NCBI RefSeq assembly: GCF_002968295.1
Contig: NZ_CP134399.1
Location: 5,084,001-5,148,000, forward strand
DNA from: Mycobacterium sp. ITM-2016-00317
GTDB lineage: Bacteria; Actinomycetota; Actinomycetes; Mycobacteriales; Mycobacteriaceae
Length of the DNA: 64,000 nucleotides
Direction of reading: 5' to 3'
Part shown: positions 9,759 through 57,711 of the stretch, one piece after another
Numbering within the stretch: position 1 is the stretch's first letter
How the letters are laid out: each line of letters begins with the position of its first letter
Notes under the pieces: model-generated
What the model saw: the letters and a program-made list of their open reading frames with translations, nothing else
Told to the model about the DNA's origin: nothing
Database searches by the model: none
Position numbers and translations under genes: made by a program

Positions 9759-10610
9759 CTAGTTGGAGACGACGCCCCGCAGGCCGTCGGCACCGAACAG
9801 CGGCTCCAGCATCCCGGACAGGTCAGGGCCGCGCCGCAGCCCGTGGCCGCCGTCGACGTTGATCACTTGCCCGGTGATGAAACTCGCCGCGTCGCTGAGC
9901 AGGAACACCGCCAGGTTGGCGACGTCCTCGACCTCGCCGACGCGGGGCAGCGGTGTGCAGGCGCGGTAGTCCTCGCTGATCGCCGGCGACTCCATGATCG
10001 GGGCGACCATGTCGGTGCGCGTCAGCCCCGGGCGGATCCCGTTGACCCGCACCCACGACGGCCCGAGCTCGTCGGCCGCCACCATCATCAGGTGGTCGAG
10101 CGCGGCCTTGCTCGGCCCGTAGGCGCCGAACCAGCGGTGCGTGTTGCTCGACGCGATCGACGAGATGCCGATGAACGAGCCCCCGCCGCCGCGGACCATC
10201 TCCCGTGCGGCGTGCTTGAGGACATACATGGTGCCGTTGACGTTCAGGTCGACCGTGTTGCGCCATGCGGCGGAATCGATCTGGGTCAGCGGGCCGATGG
10301 TCTCGGACCCACCCGCACTGTGTACCACGCCGTCCAGCCGCCCGTGCCACGCGGTGGCGGCCTCCACCAAGCGGGCCGCCTGGTCCTCGTCGGTCACGTC
10401 GGCAGGCTCGTAGATCACCTGGCCGGCCCCGTCGCCGTTCTTCGCCGCGATCTCCCGGATCTCCTGGGCGGCACCGTCCAGCTTGTCGGCGTTGCGGCCG
10501 GCCAGCACCACGTTGCCGCCGGAGGCGACGACCGCGGCGGCCACGCCCTTGCCGATCCCGCTGCCACCCCCGGTGACCAGGTATGTGCGATCGGTCAACG
10601 AGAGCAGCAT
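9759..10610 (-). CDS. Short-chain dehydrogenase/reductase
   Basis: 283 residues from ATG 10610, preferred over TTG 10631 because GAAGGGA sits just upstream of the ATG. Classical SDR: cofactor motif VTGGGSGIGKG near residue 12, and the YGPSK active-site motif. The C-terminus keeps GQVINVDGGHGL. Substrate unknown; neighbours (a crotonase and a KstR-like palindrome) suggest acyl-CoA or steroid chemistry, which is inference. A palindrome at 10643-10656 lies 33 bp upstream. Confidence 0.82.
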   Translation of the reverse strand: MLLSLTDRTYLVTGGGSGIGKGVAAAVVASGGNVVLAGRNADKLDGAAQEIREIAAKNGDGAGQVIYEPADVTDEDQAARLVEAATAWHGRLDGVVHSAGGSETIGPLTQIDSAAWRNTVDLNVNGTMYVLKHAAREMVRGGGGSFIGISSIASSNTHRWFGAYGPSKAALDHLMMVAADELGPSWVRVNGIRPGLTRTDMVAPIMESPAISEDYRACTPLPRVGEVEDVANLAVFLLSDAASFITGQVINVDGGHGLRRGPDLSGMLEPLFGADGLRGVVSN

Positions 10611-10642
10611 TGAAGTCCCTTCGAGTCCCAAGCCCGGCTAAC

Positions 10643-10656
10643 TAAAACAGGTTTCA
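10643..10656. promoter_or_regulatory. KstR-like palindrome TAAAACAGGTTTCA
   Basis: Fits the KstR consensus TnnAACnnGTTnnA at every fixed position, but the outer bases differ from the TAGAAC...GTTCTA form of the other sites in the window. It lies in the 54 bp between the crotonase stop and the SDR start on the minus strand. Another TetR-family acyl-CoA regulator with an AAACnnGTTT site is equally possible. Confidence 0.4.
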
Positions 10657-10664
10657 GTTATACG

Positions 10665-11570
10665 TCACGGCTCGTCACGGCGGGACAGTTTCGGCGCGCC
10701 CAGCGTGCGCCAGTCCGGTACCTCCGGCGGAAGACCGACCGGGAAGCGGTTCTCGTTGTGGGCCGCCCAGTGCGCATGGCCGAGCTCGTGGATGTGGAAC
10801 GCGTGCCGCAGCGCCTCGGCGAAGCCCATCGCGTCGCTGGCCGCGTTCACCGAATCCTTGACCAGCAGGGCCGCCATGGTGGGCCGCTCGGCGATCCGCC
10901 GCGCGAACTCGAGGGTCTTGTCCTCCAGTTCGGCGCGCGGGAACACCTTCGACACCATGCCGAGCCGGTGCGCCTCGTCGGCATCGATCGCGTCGCCGGT
11001 CAGCAGCAGTTCCTTGGCCTTGCGCGCGCCGAACTCCCACGGGTGCGCGTAGTACTCGACGCCGGGCATGCCCATCCGGACCGCGACCACGTCGCTGAAC
11101 TTCGCGTCGTCCGACGCGACGATCAGGTCGCAGGCCCAGATCAGCATCAGACCGGCCGAGATCGCGTTGCCCTGGACCTGGGCGATGGTGATCTTGCGCA
11201 GATCGCGCCAGCGGCTGGTGTTGTTGAAGAAGTAGTGCCATTCCTGCAAATAGGTCCGCTCACTGACGGCGTCGCGGGTGGCGCCGTTGCACGTGAACGT
11301 CGGGTGCTGACCTGGTCCGGGCGCCCGTTCGGCCAGCGCCTCCTCGGAGCCGAGGTCGTGTCCGGCCGAGAAGTTCCTCCCCCGTGCGGCGAGGATGACC
11401 ACCCGCACCACGTCGTCGGCCTCGGCCCGGCCGAACGCCTCGTCGAGCGCCACCAGCAGCGTCCGGGACTGCGCGTTCTGCGCCTCCGGCCGGTTCAGCC
11501 AGATCCGCGCGATGCGACCCTCGTCGAGAGTCTCGTATGTCACCTGCTCCTGATCACCCACGCGTGACAC
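10665..11570 (-). CDS. Enoyl-CoA hydratase/isomerase family protein, divergent active site
   Basis: 301 residues from GTG 11570. Crotonase fold: NRPEAQNAQS, the oxyanion-hole segments FSAGHDL and QGNAISAGL. The two acid/base glutamates of classical hydratase are not visible: the GGGCEL position reads SAGLML and the QPE position reads DVV. A simple hydration reaction is therefore doubtful; decarboxylase, thioesterase or isomerase activity as in other crotonases is possible. It may be cotranscribed with the downstream SDR (54-bp gap). Confidence 0.8.
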   Translation of the reverse strand: MSRVGDQEQVTYETLDEGRIARIWLNRPEAQNAQSRTLLVALDEAFGRAEADDVVRVVILAARGRNFSAGHDLGSEEALAERAPGPGQHPTFTCNGATRDAVSERTYLQEWHYFFNNTSRWRDLRKITIAQVQGNAISAGLMLIWACDLIVASDDAKFSDVVAVRMGMPGVEYYAHPWEFGARKAKELLLTGDAIDADEAHRLGMVSKVFPRAELEDKTLEFARRIAERPTMAALLVKDSVNAASDAMGFAEALRHAFHIHELGHAHWAAHNENRFPVGLPPEVPDWRTLGAPKLSRRDEP

Positions 11571-11628
11571 ATTACGGCCGAAGTGTCATGCCCGAGTACA
11601 GCACCCCGGCGCCTACCCCACAGTTGGC

Positions 11629-11634
11629 TACAGT
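11629..11634 (+). promoter_or_regulatory. -10 element TACAGT, leaderless promoter of the otsA pair
   Basis: TACAGT (TANNNT) ends 7 nt before the A of ATG 11641 and is preceded by GGC. No Shine-Dalgarno is present before the ATG, consistent with a leaderless transcript covering the small ORF and otsA. Confidence 0.5.
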
Positions 11635-11640
11635 TGTGTC

Positions 11641-11808
11641 ATGCCTGCGAAACCTGATCCCGCCGAGATCGGCGACGTCGAACCCATCGCCGATGTCACC
11701 GAGCGTCAGGCGCGTCGCGTGGTCGCCGCCTACGCGACCGACGCCGACGAGTGCCGCGTCTTCCTCTCGATGCTCGGCATCGGACCGGCGAAGCTCGCCG
11801 ACGCCTGA
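11641..11808 (+). CDS. Small conserved protein upstream of otsA (Rv3489-like)
   Basis: 55 residues, ATG 11641 to TGA 11806-11808. The sequence is mostly helical and acidic (ends [12 protein letters not shown]). Its stop overlaps the otsA start (TGATG), so translation is coupled. M. tuberculosis has a small ORF of unknown function, Rv3489, directly upstream of otsA; size and place match, by memory. A role in trehalose-phosphate synthesis or its control is only inferred from the coupling. Confidence 0.7.
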
Positions 11809-13313
11809 TGGGCCCGGCGAGCGGTCCCGAGGTCCGCTCCGGCTCGGCGTCCACGGTGCCGCCCTCTGCGTCGGCGGATTTCGTCGTGGTCGCCAACCGG
11901 TTGCCCATCGACATGGTGCGGCTTCCCGACGGCACCACGGAATTCAAGCGCAGCCCGGGCGGCCTGGTGACCGCACTGGAGCCGCTGCTGCGGCGCCGAC
12001 AGGGCGCGTGGATCGGCTGGCCCGGCGTTCCCGAGGACGCCGACGATCCCGACGCGACCACCGAGCCGATCGAACAGGACGGGATGACGCTGGTCCCGGT
12101 CCGGCTCAGCGCCGAGGACGTCGCGCTGTACTACGAGGGTTTCTCCAACGGCACGCTGTGGCCGCTGTATCACGACGTGATCGTCAAGCCGATCTACCAC
12201 CGGCAGTGGTGGGATCGGTACGTCGAGGTCAACCGGCGCTTCGCCGAGGCCGCCGCGCAGACCGCGGCCGAGGGCGCGACCGTGTGGGTGCAGGACTATC
12301 AGCTTCAGCTGGTGCCCAAGATGCTGCGGATGTTGCGGCCGGACCTGACCATCGGGTTCTTCCTGCACATCCCGTTCCCGCCGGTCGAGCTGTTCATGCA
12401 GCTGCCGTGGCGCTCGGAGATCATCGACGGCCTGCTCGGCGCCGACCTGGTCGGCTTCCATCTGCCCGGCGGCGCCCAGAACTTCCTGATCCTGGCCCGA
12501 AGGCTGGTGGGGGCGCCCGCGTCTCGTGCCAGTGTCGGCGTGCGCTCCCGGTTCGGTGAGGTCCAGGTCGGCTTCCGCACCGTCAAGGTGGGCGCCTTCC
12601 CGATCTCCATCGACTCCGCCGACCTCGACCAGCAGGCACGCAGTCGCGCGATCCGGCAGCGGGCCAAGGCGATCCGCGCCGAGCTGGGCAACCCGCGCAA
12701 GATCCTGCTCGGTGTGGACCGACTGGACTACACCAAGGGCATCGACGTCCGCCTCAACGCGTTCTCCGAGCTTCTCGAGGATGGGCGGGTCAACCGCGAG
12801 GACACCGTGCTGGTGCAGCTGGCGACACCCAGCCGCGAGCGGGTGGAGAGCTACATCGCCATGCGGGAGGACATCGAGCGCCAGGTCGGCCACATCAACG
12901 GCGAGTACGGCGAGGTGGGCCACCCGGTGGTGCACTACCTGCACCGGCCGATACCGCGCGAGGATCTCGTCGCGTTCTTCGTCGCCGCCGACGTCATGCT
13001 CGTCACGCCGCTGCGCGACGGCATGAACCTCGTCGCCAAGGAGTACGTGGCCTGCCGCAGCGACCTTGGCGGTGCGCTGGTGCTCAGCGAATTCACCGGC
13101 GCCGCAGCAGAATTGCGCCAGGCGTACCTGTGCAACCCGCACCACACCCAGGGTGTCAAGGATGCGATCGAGGCCGCGCTCAACCAGACGCCCGAGGAGG
13201 GCAGGCGCCGGATGCGTGCGCTGCGCAGGCAGGTGCTCGCCCACGACGTCGACCGGTGGGCGCGGTCCTTCCTGAGTGCACTCGCGTCGGAGGAACCGCC
13301 CCCCGAGGAGTGA
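11808..13313 (+). CDS. otsA: Alpha,alpha-trehalose-phosphate synthase (OtsA)
   Basis: 501 residues from ATG 11808 (an upstream in-frame start at 11751 would run through the small ORF). GT20 fold: [10 protein letters not shown] at the N-terminus, [34 protein letters not shown] and [13 protein letters not shown], which hold the donor and glucose-6-phosphate contacts. It makes trehalose-6-phosphate from a nucleotide-glucose and glucose-6-phosphate in the cytosol; trehalose is needed for mycobacterial glycolipid assembly. All motifs are intact. Confidence 0.95.
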
Positions 13314-51642: not shown

Positions 51643-51672
51643 GTTAGAAGCCGAGATTTGGGAGGGCCCGAG

Positions 51673-52836
51673 GTGACTACCGATTCAACTGCGGCAAGCG
51701 CAGGGATTCGCGAGATCGACACCGGCACGCTGCCCGACCGCTATGCGCGCGGGTGGCACTGCCTGGGGCCGGTGAAGAACTTCCTGGACGGGGAGCCGCA
51801 CGGGATCGAGATCTTCGGGACCATGCTGGTGGTGTTCGCCGACTCGCAAGGCGAGATCCAGATCCTCGACGGCTACTGCAGGCACATGGGCGGCAACCTC
51901 GCCCAGGGCACCGTCAAGGGCGACGAGATCGCCTGCCCGTTCCACGACTGGCGCTGGGGCGGCGACGGCAAGTGCAAACTCGTCCCCTACGCCAAACGCA
52001 CCCCCCGCCTGGCCCGCACCCGCGCCTGGCACACCGATGTGCGCGGCGGCCTGCTGTTCGTGTGGCACGACCACGAGGGGAACCCACCGCAGCCCGAGGT
52101 CCGCATTCCGGAGATCCCGCAGTGGTCCAGCGGCGAGTGGACCGACTGGAAGTGGAACACGATGCTGATCGAGGGCAGCAACTGCCGCGAGATCATCGAC
52201 AACGTCACCGACATGGCGCACTTCTTCTACATCCACTTCGGGTTGCCGACCTACTTCAAGAACGTCTTCGAAGGCCACATCGCCAGCCAGTACCTGCACA
52301 ACGTCGGCCGCCCCGACGTCAACGACATGGGCACGGCCTACGGTGACGCGTCGCTGGACTCCGAGGCCAGCTACTTCGGCCCGTCGTTCATGATCAACTG
52401 GCTGCACAACACCTACGGCGACTTCAAGGCCGAGTCGATCCTGATCAACTGCCACTACCCGGTCTCACAGGACTCGTTCGTGCTGCAGTGGGGCGTCATC
52501 GTCGAGAAGCCCCAGGGCCTGGACGACAAGACCACCGAGAAGCTGGCCGACGCGTTCACCGACGGGGTCAGCAAGGGCTTCCTGCAGGACGTGGAGATCT
52601 GGAAGCACAAGACGCGCATCGACAACCCGCTGCTGGTCGAAGAAGACGGCGCGGTGTACCAGATGCGCCGCTGGTACCAGCAGTTCTACGTCGACGTCGC
52701 CGACGTCACCCCCGAAATGACCGACCGGTTCGAGATGGAGGTCGACACGACGATCGCCAACGAGAAGTGGCACGTCGAGGTCGAACAGAACCTGAAGGCC
52801 AGGGAAGCCGAGAAGGCAGAACAGCCGGCGACATGA
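51673..52836 (+). CDS. kshA: 3-ketosteroid 9-alpha-monooxygenase oxygenase subunit KshA
   Basis: 387 residues from GTG 51673 preceded by GGGAGGG. Rieske ligands Cys69, His71, Cys88, His91 (CxH-x16-CxxH) and the iron site IIDNVTDMAHFFYIHF. KshA hydroxylates C9 of 3-ketosteroids, which with delta-1-dehydrogenation opens ring B. Needs KshB, encoded elsewhere. KstR operator directly upstream and Rv3527-like gene coupled downstream, as in M. tuberculosis Rv3526-Rv3527. Residues 68-122 are almost identical to the paralog at 34268. Confidence 0.93.
   Translation: MTTDSTAASAGIREIDTGTLPDRYARGWHCLGPVKNFLDGEPHGIEIFGTMLVVFADSQGEIQILDGYCRHMGGNLAQGTVKGDEIACPFHDWRWGGDGKCKLVPYAKRTPRLARTRAWHTDVRGGLLFVWHDHEGNPPQPEVRIPEIPQWSSGEWTDWKWNTMLIEGSNCREIIDNVTDMAHFFYIHFGLPTYFKNVFEGHIASQYLHNVGRPDVNDMGTAYGDASLDSEASYFGPSFMINWLHNTYGDFKAESILINCHYPVSQDSFVLQWGVIVEKPQGLDDKTTEKLADAFTDGVSKGFLQDVEIWKHKTRIDNPLLVEEDGAVYQMRRWYQQFYVDVADVTPEMTDRFEMEVDTTIANEKWHVEVEQNLKAREAEKAEQPAT
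51871..52035 (+). repeat. 165-bp block nearly identical to 34460-34624
   Basis: Second copy of the Rieske-coding repeat, with three differences in 165 bases. Same orientation, 17,411 bp from the first copy, so the two could recombine and delete the DNA between them. Confidence 0.75.
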
Positions 52837-53297
52837 GTCAGCCACCGGATGTGGACCGCCTCGCCAAGTCGATGCTGCTGCTGCACGGGCACGACGACGA
52901 GGGGCACGAGCACGGCCACACTCCGGGGCACACCGATGACAAGCCCGGATCATGGCGTAAGGCACCGGATTTCGCGTCGGACCCTGATCGCGCGGCGGCC
53001 GTGCGGGCGGCCACCCAGGCCGACCGCGAGCGCTACCTCACGTCGGGGCTGGCCGAGGTCGACTGCCGGTTCTGCCACGTGGCGGTCAAGGTGAAGAAGC
53101 TGGGCCCGACCCACACCTCGGTGCAGTGGAACAGCGAGGCGACCCAGCGCTGCGCCCATTTCGCCGAGATCCGGGCGGCCGGCGGTGAGCCCGCCCGGTC
53201 ACCGTCCTGCCCGCGGCTGGCCGACAGCATCAGGCACGCCGTCGCCGAAGGTTGCCTGGAGGAGTACTCCAGCGCGCCGCCGCCCGGTGACGGGTAG
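52833..53297 (+). CDS. Rv3527-like protein with His-rich N-terminus
   Basis: 154 residues from ATG 52833, overlapping the kshA TGA (ATGA). Residues 18-33 are a His/Asp/Glu-rich stretch (HGHDDEGHEHGHTPGH), and the rest has CRFCH, RCAHF, SCPRL and GCLEE cysteines, so metal binding is likely. No known domain recognised. The coupling to kshA suggests a role in assembling or supporting the oxygenase, which is inference. Confidence 0.75.
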   Translation: MSQPPDVDRLAKSMLLLHGHDDEGHEHGHTPGHTDDKPGSWRKAPDFASDPDRAAAVRAATQADRERYLTSGLAEVDCRFCHVAVKVKKLGPTHTSVQWNSEATQRCAHFAEIRAAGGEPARSPSCPRLADSIRHAVAEGCLEEYSSAPPPGDG

Positions 53298-53320: not shown

Positions 53321-54781
53321 TCAGGAACGAATCCGTTCCAACGCGGCCGCACGCTCGGTGACCCAGGAGCGCAGTGACTCGGCCTCGTCCCGCAAGGCCT
53401 GCTCGCTGAGGCCGGCGCTGAGCGGCACGGTCGCCACCAGTTCGTCGAGGAGTTCCACCGCGCGCCCGTCGGCGTACATCTGCCCGTAGAGCTCCCAGTA
53501 CGCCGTCTCGTACAGGTCGGTGAACGCGCGGGACTCCAGGAACCGCTTCTTCAGGGTGTTGCCCCTCAGCCATGGCGGCACTTCACCGGGCGCGGCGCCC
53601 GGCGGTGGCCCTGGAGGTGGCGGGAACCCGGACGGGAAGACCATCTCGACCGGATCGTGCGGGCCGGTGGTGGGGTCGCCCATCAGCATGGCCAGGTTCA
53701 GATCCCAGGACACCACCGACAGTTTGCGGGTGTCCAGGTCGTACCACAGGTAGTAGTTCTGGCCCGGGCCCGACATGTCGTCGGCGTTCACCAGCAGGTT
53801 CTGTGTCGCGACGTAGCGCGCGAGGGATTCCACGTCCACCCATTGCGGCAGCGACGCGTCGAACTCAGCCGCATCGGCGGTGTCGAGCCATTTCAGGAAG
53901 TCGATGAGGGGCTGCAGGTTTCCGGAGTCCACCGCGTTGATCTGCTTGAACTCGCCCGCATAGATCGACTGGTCGGAGCCCCGGTATTTGAACTGGGATC
54001 CGGCCCGAGCCTTGTAGAGGTAGCCGGCGGACTCGTAGAGGGTGTTGGCATAGGTGTCGTCGGGATGCTCGAGGACGAGCTTCGTCGTGGTGTCGCCGTT
54101 GATCGAATATCTCACGTGGGCGTAGCGCTGCGTGGGTTGGCCGGTCCCAGCGGTCAACGACAACGCCAATGCCTCGTTGAGCATCGATGTCCCGGGCCGC
54201 ACCGTCAGCTCGGTCCTCCCCTGGTAGCCGCGCCCGTCGGCGTTCTCGTCGAAGCTGATCAACAGCGGCAGCGAGGTCGGGACATCGGCGGACACGGCGC
54301 CCATCGGGCCGAAGGAAGGCGGTATGGAGAAGCCTTCCAGCCCGGGCGGCGGCGGCCGCAGTCCCATCAGCGTCGAGTTGCCTTTGAGCCGGACCGCGAC
54401 GTCGTCGATCACCGTGCCGTCGATGGTCAGGTCGGCGCTGACCCACTTCTTGTCGCCGTCGGCGGTGAACTGGGTCAGCATGTGGCGAAGTTCGGCGTCG
54501 GCGATCTCGATCGACAGGGTGTGCTCGACCGTGGGGTCGAAAAGGTCGACGGTGCCGGGGATGTCGTGGGTGATTTGCGAGGCGATGACGGACACGTCGC
54601 CGGTGATGTAGGGCCGCAGGCGGACCTGCCCGAACACCAGCCCCACCACCGCGGCGAAAACGATCAGGGTGGCCAACAACTTCCAGTGTTGGCGCACCGA
54701 TCTCGGAACCCGGCGGACGAGCCGCCGTGCCCCGGTGGGGCGCACGGGCGCGGTAACGTCCTCAGATGTCGGTCTGGTCAT
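53321..54781 (-). CDS. CotH kinase-family protein, membrane-anchored
   Basis: 486 residues. Transmembrane helix about 33-52 and an extracytoplasmic CotH domain: VRLKGNSTLMG, FDENADGRGYQGRTEL, TYESAGYLYKA-like segment and NADDMSGPGQNYYLWYD followed by VVSWDLNLAM, the position of the catalytic/metal Asp. CotH proteins are atypical secreted kinases that phosphorylate proteins. Overlaps the DUF4956 gene by 20 bp and is coupled to it. Confidence 0.82.
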   Translation of the reverse strand: MTRPTSEDVTAPVRPTGARRLVRRVPRSVRQHWKLLATLIVFAAVVGLVFGQVRLRPYITGDVSVIASQITHDIPGTVDLFDPTVEHTLSIEIADAELRHMLTQFTADGDKKWVSADLTIDGTVIDDVAVRLKGNSTLMGLRPPPPGLEGFSIPPSFGPMGAVSADVPTSLPLLISFDENADGRGYQGRTELTVRPGTSMLNEALALSLTAGTGQPTQRYAHVRYSINGDTTTKLVLEHPDDTYANTLYESAGYLYKARAGSQFKYRGSDQSIYAGEFKQINAVDSGNLQPLIDFLKWLDTADAAEFDASLPQWVDVESLARYVATQNLLVNADDMSGPGQNYYLWYDLDTRKLSVVSWDLNLAMLMGDPTTGPHDPVEMVFPSGFPPPPGPPPGAAPGEVPPWLRGNTLKKRFLESRAFTDLYETAYWELYGQMYADGRAVELLDELVATVPLSAGLSEQALRDEAESLRSWVTERAAALERIRS

Positions 54782-55439
54782 AGCCGGTCAGCACCGTCAC
54801 CCGTTGCCCGCTGTTCACCCCGCTCAGCGCGGCGATCAGGTCGTTGCCGGTCCTGCCCTTCTTCAGCCGGGCCGTGTAGTACAGCTCGTGAAGGGCGCCG
54901 GAACGCACCGATTCGGTTGACACCAACTCGAATTCGGAACAGTGCTCGATCAGCACGTCCTCGACGCGCGCAGAGTACTCGTGTTCGGGCGGCACCTGCA
55001 CCTTCACCACCTGGCGCTTGACGTCGAGCTTGAACAGATTGAACTTGCTCATGATCACCAGCACCAGGCAGATGGCGACGGTGGCGGCCACCGCCAGGAG
55101 ATAGAACCGGGTACCGCAGGTCATCCCGACCGCCATCACCAGGAAGACGAATCCGATGTCCCGGGTTTCCTTGATGGCGTTGCGGAATCGGATCACCGAC
55201 AGCGCACCGACCAGGGCGAAGGCCCGGGCGATGTTCGACCCGACCACCAGCATGATGACGGAGATGATCATGCAGACCATCACCAGCGTCTGGACGAACG
55301 ACTGGCTGTAGGAGACGTTCTTGTGGGTGTACCGGTACACCCACCCGATGACGAGAGCGAGCACGAAGGACAGCGACAACGACGCGACGACGTCGAAGAC
55401 GGTGAAGGTGCCGCTGAGGTCCTGCAGATTGATGTTCAC
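54762..55439 (-). CDS. DUF4956 membrane protein
   Basis: 225 residues from GTG 55439. About four transmembrane helices in residues 10-130 (including SLSLSFVLALVIGWVY), the DUF4956 signature GALSVIRFRNAIKETRDIGF on the cytoplasmic side, and a soluble C-terminal domain of about 90 residues (VQVPPEHEYSARVEDVLIE). Family function unknown, but it recurs next to VTC-domain and CotH genes in many bacteria. Confidence 0.83.
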   Translation of the reverse strand: MNINLQDLSGTFTVFDVVASLSLSFVLALVIGWVYRYTHKNVSYSQSFVQTLVMVCMIISVIMLVVGSNIARAFALVGALSVIRFRNAIKETRDIGFVFLVMAVGMTCGTRFYLLAVAATVAICLVLVIMSKFNLFKLDVKRQVVKVQVPPEHEYSARVEDVLIEHCSEFELVSTESVRSGALHELYYTARLKKGRTGNDLIAALSGVNSGQRVTVLTGYDQTDI

Positions 55440-55458
55440 AAGAGGCTTTCTGATTCGA

Positions 55459-56388
55459 TCACTTGTCGGGTAACGATTTTCGCGCGGCCGCCGGGCTGCC
55501 TGACTCCAGCAGAGCGGCGGGTACGGGTTCTGCGGCGTCCGGCGGCACCAGCTCGGGAGAGCCGGACAGCGACCGGGGCGCGAGGTCGAAGGCCTGCACC
55601 GACTGGCAGTACTTCGATATCCGGACGACCGACATGTCGATGCGGGCCAACAGATCGGTGATCCAGTACGGCACCCGCTCGTTGGCCTTGACCTCCACGA
55701 TCGCCAGCTTCGGCGGGATGGTGAAGCGGTTGGGGGCATCCGAGGCGAAATGGAAGTCCCTGTCGCGGCCGTGCACCTTGTGGTCGATGGTCACCCGCAG
55801 TCCCATGTCGGCGTCCCGACCGACGAATGCCTCGCGCAGGTAGCCGGTGGTGACGACGGGCCGTAGGTCCAGATTGCCGACCAGTGTCGACACCTCGTCG
55901 ACGAACGGACGCTGCGTGGGGTCGCAGTCGATCTCCTCGCGGTCGTTCAGCCAGCGCAGCGCGGTGGCGTAAGGCAGTTCGATGCGACGTTTCTGTGTCA
56001 CCCGGTTCACCCGTTGCTTGATCTCGACCTGCACCGGGGTGTCGGCCGTGCAGGCTGACGGCGGGCCGTACAGGCGCATGCGCAGTTTGCGGCGGAACCG
56101 CAGTCCTTCGATCTTCTCCCAGTAGAACCGCAGATCGGGGGTGTCGTAGTACAGCGAGGTCACCGGGTACCCACCGCGCGGCGAATACGGATCGCTGTTC
56201 ATGCGGGCCGCCAGCTCGGTTCGAAGTGCCGGCACCATCAGTTCGTCGACGAAGTACTTGATCTCGTACCGATTGAAGGCGTGCAGCTTGCTCGCCGTCT
56301 GTTGATAGCCGGTCGGCCGTGTCGGGACGTCGTCGTACGGGCGCGACGACTGGCCCGCGCGGGCGCGGCGCAACCCGAACAGATTCAT
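55459..56388 (-). CDS. VTC-domain (polyphosphate polymerase-like) protein
   Basis: 309 residues. Triphosphate tunnel fold: NRYEIKYFVDE (ExK motif), TSLYYDTPDLRFYWEK, RFRRKLRMRLYG, VEIKQRVNRVTQKRR, LAIVEVKANERVPYW and ISKYCQSV. These basic and acidic tunnel residues match the catalytic core of yeast Vtc4, which makes polyphosphate from ATP. The bacterial family is not well characterised. First gene of the VTC-DUF4956-CotH operon; TTCA-type repeats lie upstream. Confidence 0.85.
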   Translation of the reverse strand: MNLFGLRRARAGQSSRPYDDVPTRPTGYQQTASKLHAFNRYEIKYFVDELMVPALRTELAARMNSDPYSPRGGYPVTSLYYDTPDLRFYWEKIEGLRFRRKLRMRLYGPPSACTADTPVQVEIKQRVNRVTQKRRIELPYATALRWLNDREEIDCDPTQRPFVDEVSTLVGNLDLRPVVTTGYLREAFVGRDADMGLRVTIDHKVHGRDRDFHFASDAPNRFTIPPKLAIVEVKANERVPYWITDLLARIDMSVVRISKYCQSVQAFDLAPRSLSGSPELVPPDAAEPVPAALLESGSPAAARKSLPDK

Positions 56389-56440
56389 GTCTCCTGCGCT
56401 TCTGGTCAGCTGGGGGTCACTTCGAGATGAGCGGGAAGTG

Positions 56441-56484
56441 AACAGCTAGTGAAGCTAACAGTATGAAGCTATGAAGGAGCTATG
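56441..56484 (-). promoter_or_regulatory. TTCAYW direct repeats upstream of the VTC gene
   Basis: On the minus strand TTCATA, TTCATA, TTCACT and TTCACT occur in line, starting 8, 14 and 11 bp apart, within about 53-95 bp of the VTC start. Spaced direct repeats of this kind are typical of OmpR/PhoB-family response regulators. The cognate regulator is not in the window. The remaining gap to 56568 shows nothing else. Confidence 0.35.
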
Positions 56485-56568
56485 TGTGCCGGCCGCGCAT
56501 CCGCCGGGTACCGGATGACCTGGGGGTTCAGGCGGCGATGATGTCGGTCACACATGGCCCGGTCGCGG

Positions 56569-57711
56569 TCAGAGGCTCTCGAACCGTTCCTTGACCTGCG
56601 CCGCGGTGAGTCCGTAGTCAGCCAGCGAGTAGGTGTGCTTCGGCGCGCGGGGGCCCTTCTTGCTGTCCTCGTGGGTCTTCGTCATCGCCGCACGGGCCTC
56701 GTCGGTGAACTCGATGCCGAAGGCTCGGTAGATGTCCCCGACGACGCCGACGGGATCCTCGATCAACGAGAAATAGTCCAGGTCGTAGAACTGCGCCGGA
56801 TCATGCTTGGCACGTTCGGCGTTGAACAACTCCAGGCCCCGCGACCAGGTCTCCATCGAGTCTGCGCCGATGACATCGCCGGCGAACGTGTGAGACCACC
56901 CCTCGGTGGTGTGCTGGGCGAGTGAACACATCGACGCCATGATCGTCTCGGCCGGCCGGTGGCACTGCACCACCAGCGCGTCGGGATAGGTCGCGAACAG
57001 CGCGTCGAGGGCGAACAGGTGACTGGGATTCTTCAGCACCCACCGCTTCTCGCGGTCGTTGAGGCCGATCAACTGCAGGTTGCGCCGGTGCCGCTGATAG
57101 GACTTGGTCCAGTCCTGGCGGGCCAGCCACTGCGAGTAGGTCGGCACGTGGGCCAGCGTCTCGTAGGACACCGAATGCAGGGACTGGCGCAGCAGCTGCC
57201 AGCACTCCTCCACCTCGTCGGCGGTCATGAAGTGCAGCCCGGTGTAGTCCGGGTTCTCCTCGTGCGCCTTGGTGAACTGTGCGTCGAGCTGCTGGAAAAC
57301 GGGGTTCTGCGACCAGGTTTCGCGTGGCGGGCGCGGCTGGGGAAACTCGGCCAGCCACAGTTCCAGACCCTGGTGGCGGGGATCGGCGGCCAGCAGGCGG
57401 TGCACGGCGGTGGTTCCGGTACGCGGCAACCCGGTGACGAAGATCGGCCGCTCGATCGCGACGTCAGCGTGCTCGGGGTGCTGCTTGAACGCCGCCTCCG
57501 AAACCAGACGGGCGACCAACGCGTTCCTGAGGAAGAAGCGCTGCATCTTGCTGCCGAGTTCGGTGAGGTCGGCGTCGCGCTGGTACGAGTCCAGCAGAAC
57601 GCCGAGCGCCTCACGGTAGTTGTCGTCGTCCGGGCCGAAATCATCCAGGCCGCAGGCCTTCACAGCCGACGCGTGCAGATCCTCCACGGTGCCGACGTTG
57701 GTGCGCGTCAT
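56569..57711 (-). CDS. Sulfotransferase-family protein (Rv3529c-like)
   Basis: 380 residues. PAPS-binding P-loop-like motif FVTGLPRTGTTAVHRLL at 91-107 and RPAETIMASMCSL, the 3'-phosphate region. PAPS-dependent sulfotransferase fold; substrate unknown, but its place in the KstR-type cluster between kshA and hsaF suggests a steroid or lipid. Start ATG 57711 overlaps the SDR stop (ATGA). Confidence 0.84.
   Translation of the reverse strand: MTRTNVGTVEDLHASAVKACGLDDFGPDDDNYREALGVLLDSYQRDADLTELGSKMQRFFLRNALVARLVSEAAFKQHPEHADVAIERPIFVTGLPRTGTTAVHRLLAADPRHQGLELWLAEFPQPRPPRETWSQNPVFQQLDAQFTKAHEENPDYTGLHFMTADEVEECWQLLRQSLHSVSYETLAHVPTYSQWLARQDWTKSYQRHRRNLQLIGLNDREKRWVLKNPSHLFALDALFATYPDALVVQCHRPAETIMASMCSLAQHTTEGWSHTFAGDVIGADSMETWSRGLELFNAERAKHDPAQFYDLDYFSLIEDPVGVVGDIYRAFGIEFTDEARAAMTKTHEDSKKGPRAPKHTYSLADYGLTAAQVKERFESL

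Follow-up and report, generated by a model that had tools for sequence, protein, structure and literature searches.

A VTC-DUF4956-CotH operon with PHO-box-like promoter elements in a mycobacterium and other actinobacteria: a candidate phosphate-linked membrane module

Within a 64,000-nucleotide stretch of the genome of Mycobacterium sp. ITM-2016-00317 (contig NZ_CP134399.1, positions 5,084,001 to 5,148,000; hereafter, in its full length, the window), three adjoining minus-strand genes encode a VTC-domain protein, a DUF4956 membrane protein and a CotH-family kinase. Here we find that, in two samples of actinobacteria, all genomes that carry VTC and DUF4956 genes have them as a pair, that CotH joins them in most, and that the operon looks phosphate-controlled, as judged by PHO-box-like repeats upstream and by the phosphate-related genes that lie beside part of the loci. 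We propose that the three proteins may form a phosphate-regulated, membrane-bound module, a reading to which we give a probability of about 0.5. The apparent phosphate control, together with the finding that the position of the operon in a region of sterol genes is incidental, is new in the present analysis.

A likely operon of three protein families

An earlier reading of this DNA, made from the letters alone (the sequence-only reading), had described three packed genes with a membrane-anchored CotH kinase among them at 53321-56388, and this description was confirmed: all three products score over the cut-offs of their Pfam families (VTC, 162 bits against a cut-off of 23, E 2.3e-47; DUF4956, 103.3 bits against 30.6, E 1.6e-29; CotH, 91.3 bits against 23.8, E 1.1e-25). 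None of the NCBIfam models matched the VTC, DUF4956 or CotH protein at E 0.01. The operon and its upstream region comprise the following features.

56427..56454, minus strand: PHO-box-like site, three GTTCAC-like units with 11-nt spacing, -66 to -39 from the VTC start
56389..56568, minus strand: intergenic region upstream of the operon, 180 nt (from gene coordinates and sequence)
55459..56388, minus strand: VTC-domain protein, predicted polyphosphate polymerase, 309 aa (PF09359)
54762..55439, minus strand: DUF4956 membrane protein, 225 aa, GTG start (PF16316)
53321..54781, minus strand: CotH-family kinase, 486 aa (PF08757)

Since the gap between the VTC and DUF4956 genes is 19 nt and the DUF4956 and CotH genes overlap by 20 nt (from coordinates), the three are likely to be carried on a single transcript. 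Family profile searches of the genome (6.06 Mb, single contig) returned one match each for VTC, DUF4956 and CotH. Among the named relatives found, Mycolicibacterium vaccae is the nearest: its trio and neighbour proteins match those of the window at 87-99%.

Linkage of the three families is conserved across actinobacteria

The sequence-only reading had named weak or missing linkage of the three families as a result that would refute its functional idea; linkage was found to be conserved. Among 151 genomes of the family (the window's own included), VTC and DUF4956 occur in an identical set of 29, and CotH in 32, of which 27 have the VTC-DUF4956 pair and five lack it; in all 27 genomes that have all three, coordinates place the genes side by side. 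The pair stands without CotH in two genomes of one genus (G101 and G054; loci L061 and L062, respectively), whose DUF4956 belongs to another subfamily, because PF16316 scores far higher there. Within the window's genus the trio is patchy, given that two of the ten same-genus genomes listed (own included) carry it. A wider sample of 246 Actinomycetota genomes gave the same pattern: VTC and DUF4956 share an identical set of 25, adjacent in each, with one DUF4956 match under the cut-off, and CotH is present in 19, of which 18 have the pair, 16 with CotH adjoining and two that cannot be scored for adjacency, as CotH is on another contig. Of 14 named control genomes, only those of Bacteroides ihuae, Corynebacterium glutamicum and Methanosarcina acetivorans gave matches to VTC or DUF4956, and each of the three matched both.

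Two peptide patterns from the DUF4956 subfamily of actinobacteria retrieved 275 named loci, of which we used the best 80. All 80 hold VTC and CotH, 77 of them arranged as VTC-DUF4956-CotH and three as DUF4956-CotH-VTC, a count that is conditional on the subfamily because of the patterns used for retrieval. Several of these loci come from the same genomes as a set of 26 loci (L035-L060) analysed alongside them, and some end at contig ends. The trio counts rest on tblastn and family searches, because our gene-calling script missed or mis-framed some genes (for example, antisense calls in L049). In a plasmid collection, eight DUF4956 records (one of them from an actinobacterium) were found, with VTC adjoining in six and CotH in four by our own profiles, and Pfam agreed for the five VTC proteins scanned; on an Enterococcus faecalis plasmid (LR962858.1; L187, 6172-11299) the order is VTC-DUF4956-response regulator-histidine kinase-CotH. 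Taken together, the co-occurrence counts argue that the trio arrangement is not due to chance.

Individual loci showed further features. At L061, VTC and DUF4956 have a PhoP-like regulator and a histidine kinase at a distance of a few kb. The CotH gene of L039 (~11459-12847) is split by an extra ~1.4 kb and the DUF4956 gene of L057 (~10150-10932) by an extra ~0.8 kb, each of which may be an insertion or an assembly effect.

PHO-box-like repeats lie upstream of the operon

The site upstream of the window's VTC gene reads CTTCAC-N5-GTTCAC-N5-GCTCAT, and nowhere else in the whole genome, on either strand, does a site come within one mismatch of the triple pattern. Two further sites differ from it at two positions each; the search thus did not reveal a wider set of Pho targets in this genome. 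The motif of the trio equals the PolR site GTTCACnnnnnGTTCaC, which in Microlunatus is described as bound at the promoters of pit, ppgk, ppk and pstS (PMC6754071). It also equals the GTTCACC unit of the Streptomyces coelicolor PHO box as given in a review that also names SenX3-RegX3 as the Pho system of M. smegmatis (PMC4415409).

The repeats recur across loci. Within the smaller set (27 upstreams, namely loci L035-L060 and the window, against 168 control upstreams) 16 motif scores fall in the top 5% of controls, and GTTCAC-like pairs at spacings of 11, 22 and 33 occur in 7, 9 and 3 of the 27, against expected values of 0.16, 0.64 and 0.64. The larger set (81 upstreams, namely the 80 named loci and the window, against 487 controls) has 42 scores within the top 5% of controls, 31 of them even within the top 1%, with pairs at the same three spacings in 22, 23 and 13 of the 81 (expected, 0.67, 1.66 and 1.33). 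Of the 81 loci, 32 carry a GTTCAC pair at 11 or 22 nt; among 272 gene upstreams taken from random stretches, three do. When the spacing was set to other values of d or 2d (d, 8 to 20), 2 to 10 of the 81 had a pair. Such pairs extend over 17 of 25 genus-level groups, which were labelled by record titles with Mycobacterium and Mycolicibacterium merged, Rhodococcus hoagii placed in Rhodococcus and one group at family level.

The operon resembles the operons of the actinobacterial Pho regulon, the targets of PolR, PhoP and RegX3 (PMC6754071, PMC4415409), in its upstream GTTCAC direct repeats with an 11-nt period. It differs in that VTC goes unmentioned in PMC6754071, as do both VTC and CotH in PMC7866108, and neither term occurs among the Pho-regulon literature matches listed.

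Phosphate-related genes adjoin part of the trio loci

A response regulator and histidine kinase adjoin the trio in 9 of 26 loci (L039, L046, L049, L050, L053, L056, L057, L058 and L060), and the pair changes side and orientation among them, which favours functional linkage over a frozen gene order. The best structure match of the L046 regulator is PhoP (3r0j, E 3.3e-120), presumably that of M. tuberculosis. Regulators at least 45% identical to that of L046 were found in 9 of 26 loci and 28 of 80 named loci, against one of 40 random 20-kb stretches from eight genomes that served as neighbour controls; at a threshold of at least 70% identity the corresponding counts are 8 of 26, 5 of 80 and 0 of 40. 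In addition, four of the 26 loci and five of the 80 named ones have genes for PhoU_div (DUF47) and a PHO4-type phosphate transporter directly beside the trio. At one further named locus (L116) a transporter gene lies close by on the opposite strand, and neither gene was found in any of the 40 control stretches. When gene calls within 7 kb were clustered, only the PhoP-type pair recurred in more than three loci (eight); the PhoU-Pit pair was recovered in two in this way and in four by tblastn.

A PHO-box-like element and phosphate-gene neighbours are thus found in part of the loci, and PHO-box-like repeats and PhoP-type or PhoU-Pit neighbours support the phosphate connection of the trio independently. 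This strengthens the phosphate side of the idea, raised as speculative in the sequence-only reading, that a membrane-linked product of polyphosphate or inositol-phosphate type may feed phosphotransfer by CotH; for the window's own species, phosphate control is what we infer from these patterns.

Predicted properties of the three proteins

The structure model of the VTC protein is closest to yeast Vtc4, and polyphosphate polymerases are clearly its best matches in sequence, fold and Z. In two alignments, K44, R103, R105, R185 and R198 align with Vtc4 K200, R264, R266, R361 and R373, which we take to be catalytic positions; the sequence alignments to Vtc4 are weak (best E 0.0014), and residue numbers were derived from alignment coordinates. 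Each of the five residues is conserved in at least 29 of 30 divergent VTC rows, from which seven duplicate loci had been left out and in which one duplicate pair (L170, L176) remained. K124 pairs with Vtc4 K281 in one alignment only, the second pairing that stretch differently. E232 is invariant in alignment A5 and kept in 29 of the 30 rows; it may correspond to Vtc4 E426, presumably the metal-binding glutamate, a region that the pairwise alignments cover unreliably. The inactive tunnel that the sequence-only reading had named as a result that would count against it was thus not found: by sequence and model, a polymerase-type tunnel appears intact and conserved, which points to polyphosphate as the probable product.

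Yeast VTC subunits carry their own membrane part. The likeness to the yeast complex lies in the polymerase domain, in its tunnel fold as well as in the residues of the tunnel; whereas yeast subunits hold SPX and membrane domains, the window's 309-aa protein shows PF09359 alone in Pfam and, unlike the yeast protein with its fused membrane domain, has as its constant partner a separate membrane family, DUF4956.

For the DUF4956 protein, five helices and an ACT/ferredoxin-like C-terminal domain are predicted (model mean pLDDT 68, pTM 0.47). A fold search against solved structures gave no match with E <0.001, those listed being mostly short ferredoxin-like ones matched to the C-terminal part, and a profile search of the PDB returned two weak, unrelated-looking matches. 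The MgtC domain PF02308 scored 27.7 bits on this protein, under its cut-off of 31.4. The DUF4956 alignment holds 29 rows after removal of seven duplicate loci, with the gene of L151 entering as two fragments.

CotH has an N-terminal hydrophobic segment (~residues 31-57, by hydropathy), and its kinase domain is predicted to lie outside the membrane. It gives a weak profile match (E 0.0024) to CotH 5jd9, and a direct PDB search with the protein alone found no match. D334, D335, N342 and D360, Asp/Asn positions to which we assign presumed catalytic roles, are invariant in the 14 rows of alignment A1 and pair with 5jd9 in that weak match. With the CotH spore-coat kinases (5jd9/5jda, which we take to be from B. 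cereus) it shares the Pfam family and the N-D...N and W-D positions conserved in the profile alignment, and it differs from them in being membrane-anchored, in its G/P-rich insertions and in a PDB match that comes by profile only.

A phosphate-regulated membrane module as the preferred reading

These observations are consistent with a model in which a cytosolic VTC-type polymerase would make polyphosphate from ATP, as fold and tunnel suggest. DUF4956, by its co-occurrence the dedicated membrane partner of VTC, would most likely anchor the enzyme, or gate or pass the polymer, in place of the membrane part of the yeast subunits; this coupling through the membrane is deduced from the pairing. CotH, with its family assignment and hydrophobic segment, would be anchored in the membrane, and its outward-facing kinase domain would phosphorylate a surface protein or glycan. 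Phosphate supply would switch the operon through the PHO box, whose 11-nt repeats stand out statistically, and the box would presumably be read by a regulator of the RegX3/PhoP class. An extended form of this model, a split VTC machine in which VTC threads polyphosphate through DUF4956 and an outward-facing CotH uses the exported polymer, not ATP, as phosphoryl donor for surface phosphorylation under phosphate-starvation control, is distinctly unlikely in our estimate, and the export of polymer and its use by CotH are speculative.

Several observations weigh against the proposed module. The genome retains PPK1-type polyphosphate kinase, and polyphosphate therefore need not come from VTC. The reversed pattern, used as a control in the window's genome, matched once when up to two mismatches were allowed, the real pattern three times; no 11- or 22-nt pair is found in 49 of the 81 upstreams; and such pairs occur in only 3 of 16 mycobacterial loci (those of the window, M. 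vaccae and M. komossense), the first two being near-identical relatives. Many of the 28 PhoP-type regulators may be paralogues, since they are mostly 45-70% identical to the PhoP orthologue, and a review notes that some of the confirmed PHO boxes belong to genes whose regulation by phosphate is not obvious (PMC4415409). One genome (G349) has a third VTC with no DUF4956 detected beside it, and outside the Actinomycetota two of seven plasmid-collection DUF4956 loci show no VTC. On Sinorhizobium meliloti psymA (L182, 5251-7621), DUF4956 directly follows a gene with a caspase domain (PF00656), a different partner for the family, with no VTC, and a Hymenobacter copy adjoins a protein without any Pfam match. 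The membrane part of DUF4956 found no matching solved structure in the fold search, and the linkage, motif and neighbour counts are not phylogenetically independent. Finally, single deletions of each trio gene in Streptococcus intermedius still make Pel (2025 study, PMC12345266).

Relation to Pel loci and alternative explanations

We know of no established joint role for bacterial VTC proteins, DUF4956 and extracytoplasmic CotH kinases. The sequence-only reading was right to call their joint function unestablished, but the trio is already known from Gram-positive Pel loci (PMC7112168, PMC12345266). In the Pel clusters of streptococci and clostridia the accessory genes described are those for CotH, a polyphosphate polymerase, DUF4956 and DUF4832, and in bifidobacterial clusters a cyclase/phosphodiesterase gene replaces DUF4832 (PMC7112168). 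The authors of PMC12345266 report that their analyses failed to detect such a trio anywhere but in the Pel locus. In our literature searches, which were not exhaustive, no study of trio function outside Pel loci was found among the matches listed.

The trio of the window shares with the accessory set of S. intermedius (SIR_1592-1594; PMC7112168, PMC12345266) the same three adjacent families, and differs from it in standing alone, in its PHO-box-like promoter and in the phosphate-gene neighbours of its relatives. PelG exceeded its cut-off in none of the 151 family genomes, the only pel gene searched there, with one weak match in a genome (G057) that lacks VTC. Judged by PelG, the present loci stand outside a Pel locus, and dependence on Pel was rejected for this family.

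The chief rival, derived from the Firmicutes loci, is that the trio is an envelope-glycan module in which CotH phosphorylates an exported polysaccharide or matrix protein and VTC and DUF4956 tune the process, the phosphate link then reflecting remodelling of surface polymers when phosphate is short. It is favoured by the association of the same genes with pelDEADAFG and by the S. intermedius mutants, of which that in DUF4956 makes more Pel and that in CotH less, both aggregating less in sputum medium (PMC12345266). Plasmid loci point the same way: on a Pseudobutyrivibrio plasmid CotH-VTC-DUF4956 lies amid glycosyltransferase and pyruvyl-transferase genes, and on a Planococcus plasmid VTC-DUF4956-CotH is followed by HEAT-repeat and GT2 genes, resembling the Clostridium perfringens NELoc-2 gene list, where VTC, 'tubulin' and CotH genes lie near HEAT-repeat and glycosyltransferase genes (PMC2879425); our guess is that these 'tubulin' genes are DUF4956. 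In contrast, no glycan-synthesis gene was found among the neighbour clusters and the 20 neighbour proteins scanned (a part of all neighbours) beside actinobacterial trios, and both the PelG result and the persistence of Pel in each single mutant speak against it. We regard this explanation as rather unlikely, and it may be compatible with the phosphate-regulated module.

Less probable still is a reading of the VTC protein as a tunnel phosphatase or a different enzyme of CYTH type, with DUF4956 acting as an MgtC-like regulator of phosphate or ATP use: polyphosphate polymerases are clearly the better matches, and the five Vtc4 positions named above have conserved equivalents.

Position in the sterol region

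The sequence-only reading had placed the trio in a sterol gene region. The flanking features are as follows.

56569..57711, minus strand: Rv3529c-like sulfotransferase-family gene, upstream flank (PF13469)
52833..53297, plus strand: convergent gene, downstream flank (from gene coordinates)
51658..52836, plus strand: KshA-like Rieske oxygenase gene, downstream beyond the convergent gene (PF19298)

This place between KshA-like and Rv3529c-like genes is shared by only 3 of the 80 named loci (M. vaccae, Mycobacterium sp. GA-2829 and M. aurum). A strong Rv3529c-like match is present in 13 of 15 genomes of the genus (own included), and at all 12 other same-genus sites an Rv3527-like gene lies within ~1 kb of the best Rv3529c-like locus, with none of VTC, DUF4956 or CotH between. 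The sterol surroundings consequently say little about trio function, and the tie to sterol genes was not supported; we read the trio at this site as an accessory element that either was inserted here or has survived repeated loss. A part in sterol catabolism, which the shared position and the KshA-like genes near other trios might suggest, was rejected on these position data and is largely refuted, the trio also occurring in many other actinobacterial genera at other places.

At some loci of trio-free genomes of the genus (L189, L194, L195, L196 and L199) the Rv3529c-like and Rv3527-like genes are ~0.6-1.0 kb apart, not a few tens of bases. KshA-like Rieske genes also lie a few kb from the trio at other chromosomal places (L037, L049 and L050), which may be coincidence.

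Significance

The trio operon is present in many other actinobacteria besides the window's mycobacterium. With the shared genomes of VTC and DUF4956, the presence of CotH in most of them, the freedom from PelG and the PHO-box-like promoters of many copies, a vague co-occurrence becomes a testable phosphate-linked pathway. If export were true, DUF4956 and VTC would constitute a bacterial polyphosphate translocase like that of yeast vacuoles, and this could explain the phosphate source of kinases that act outside the membrane.

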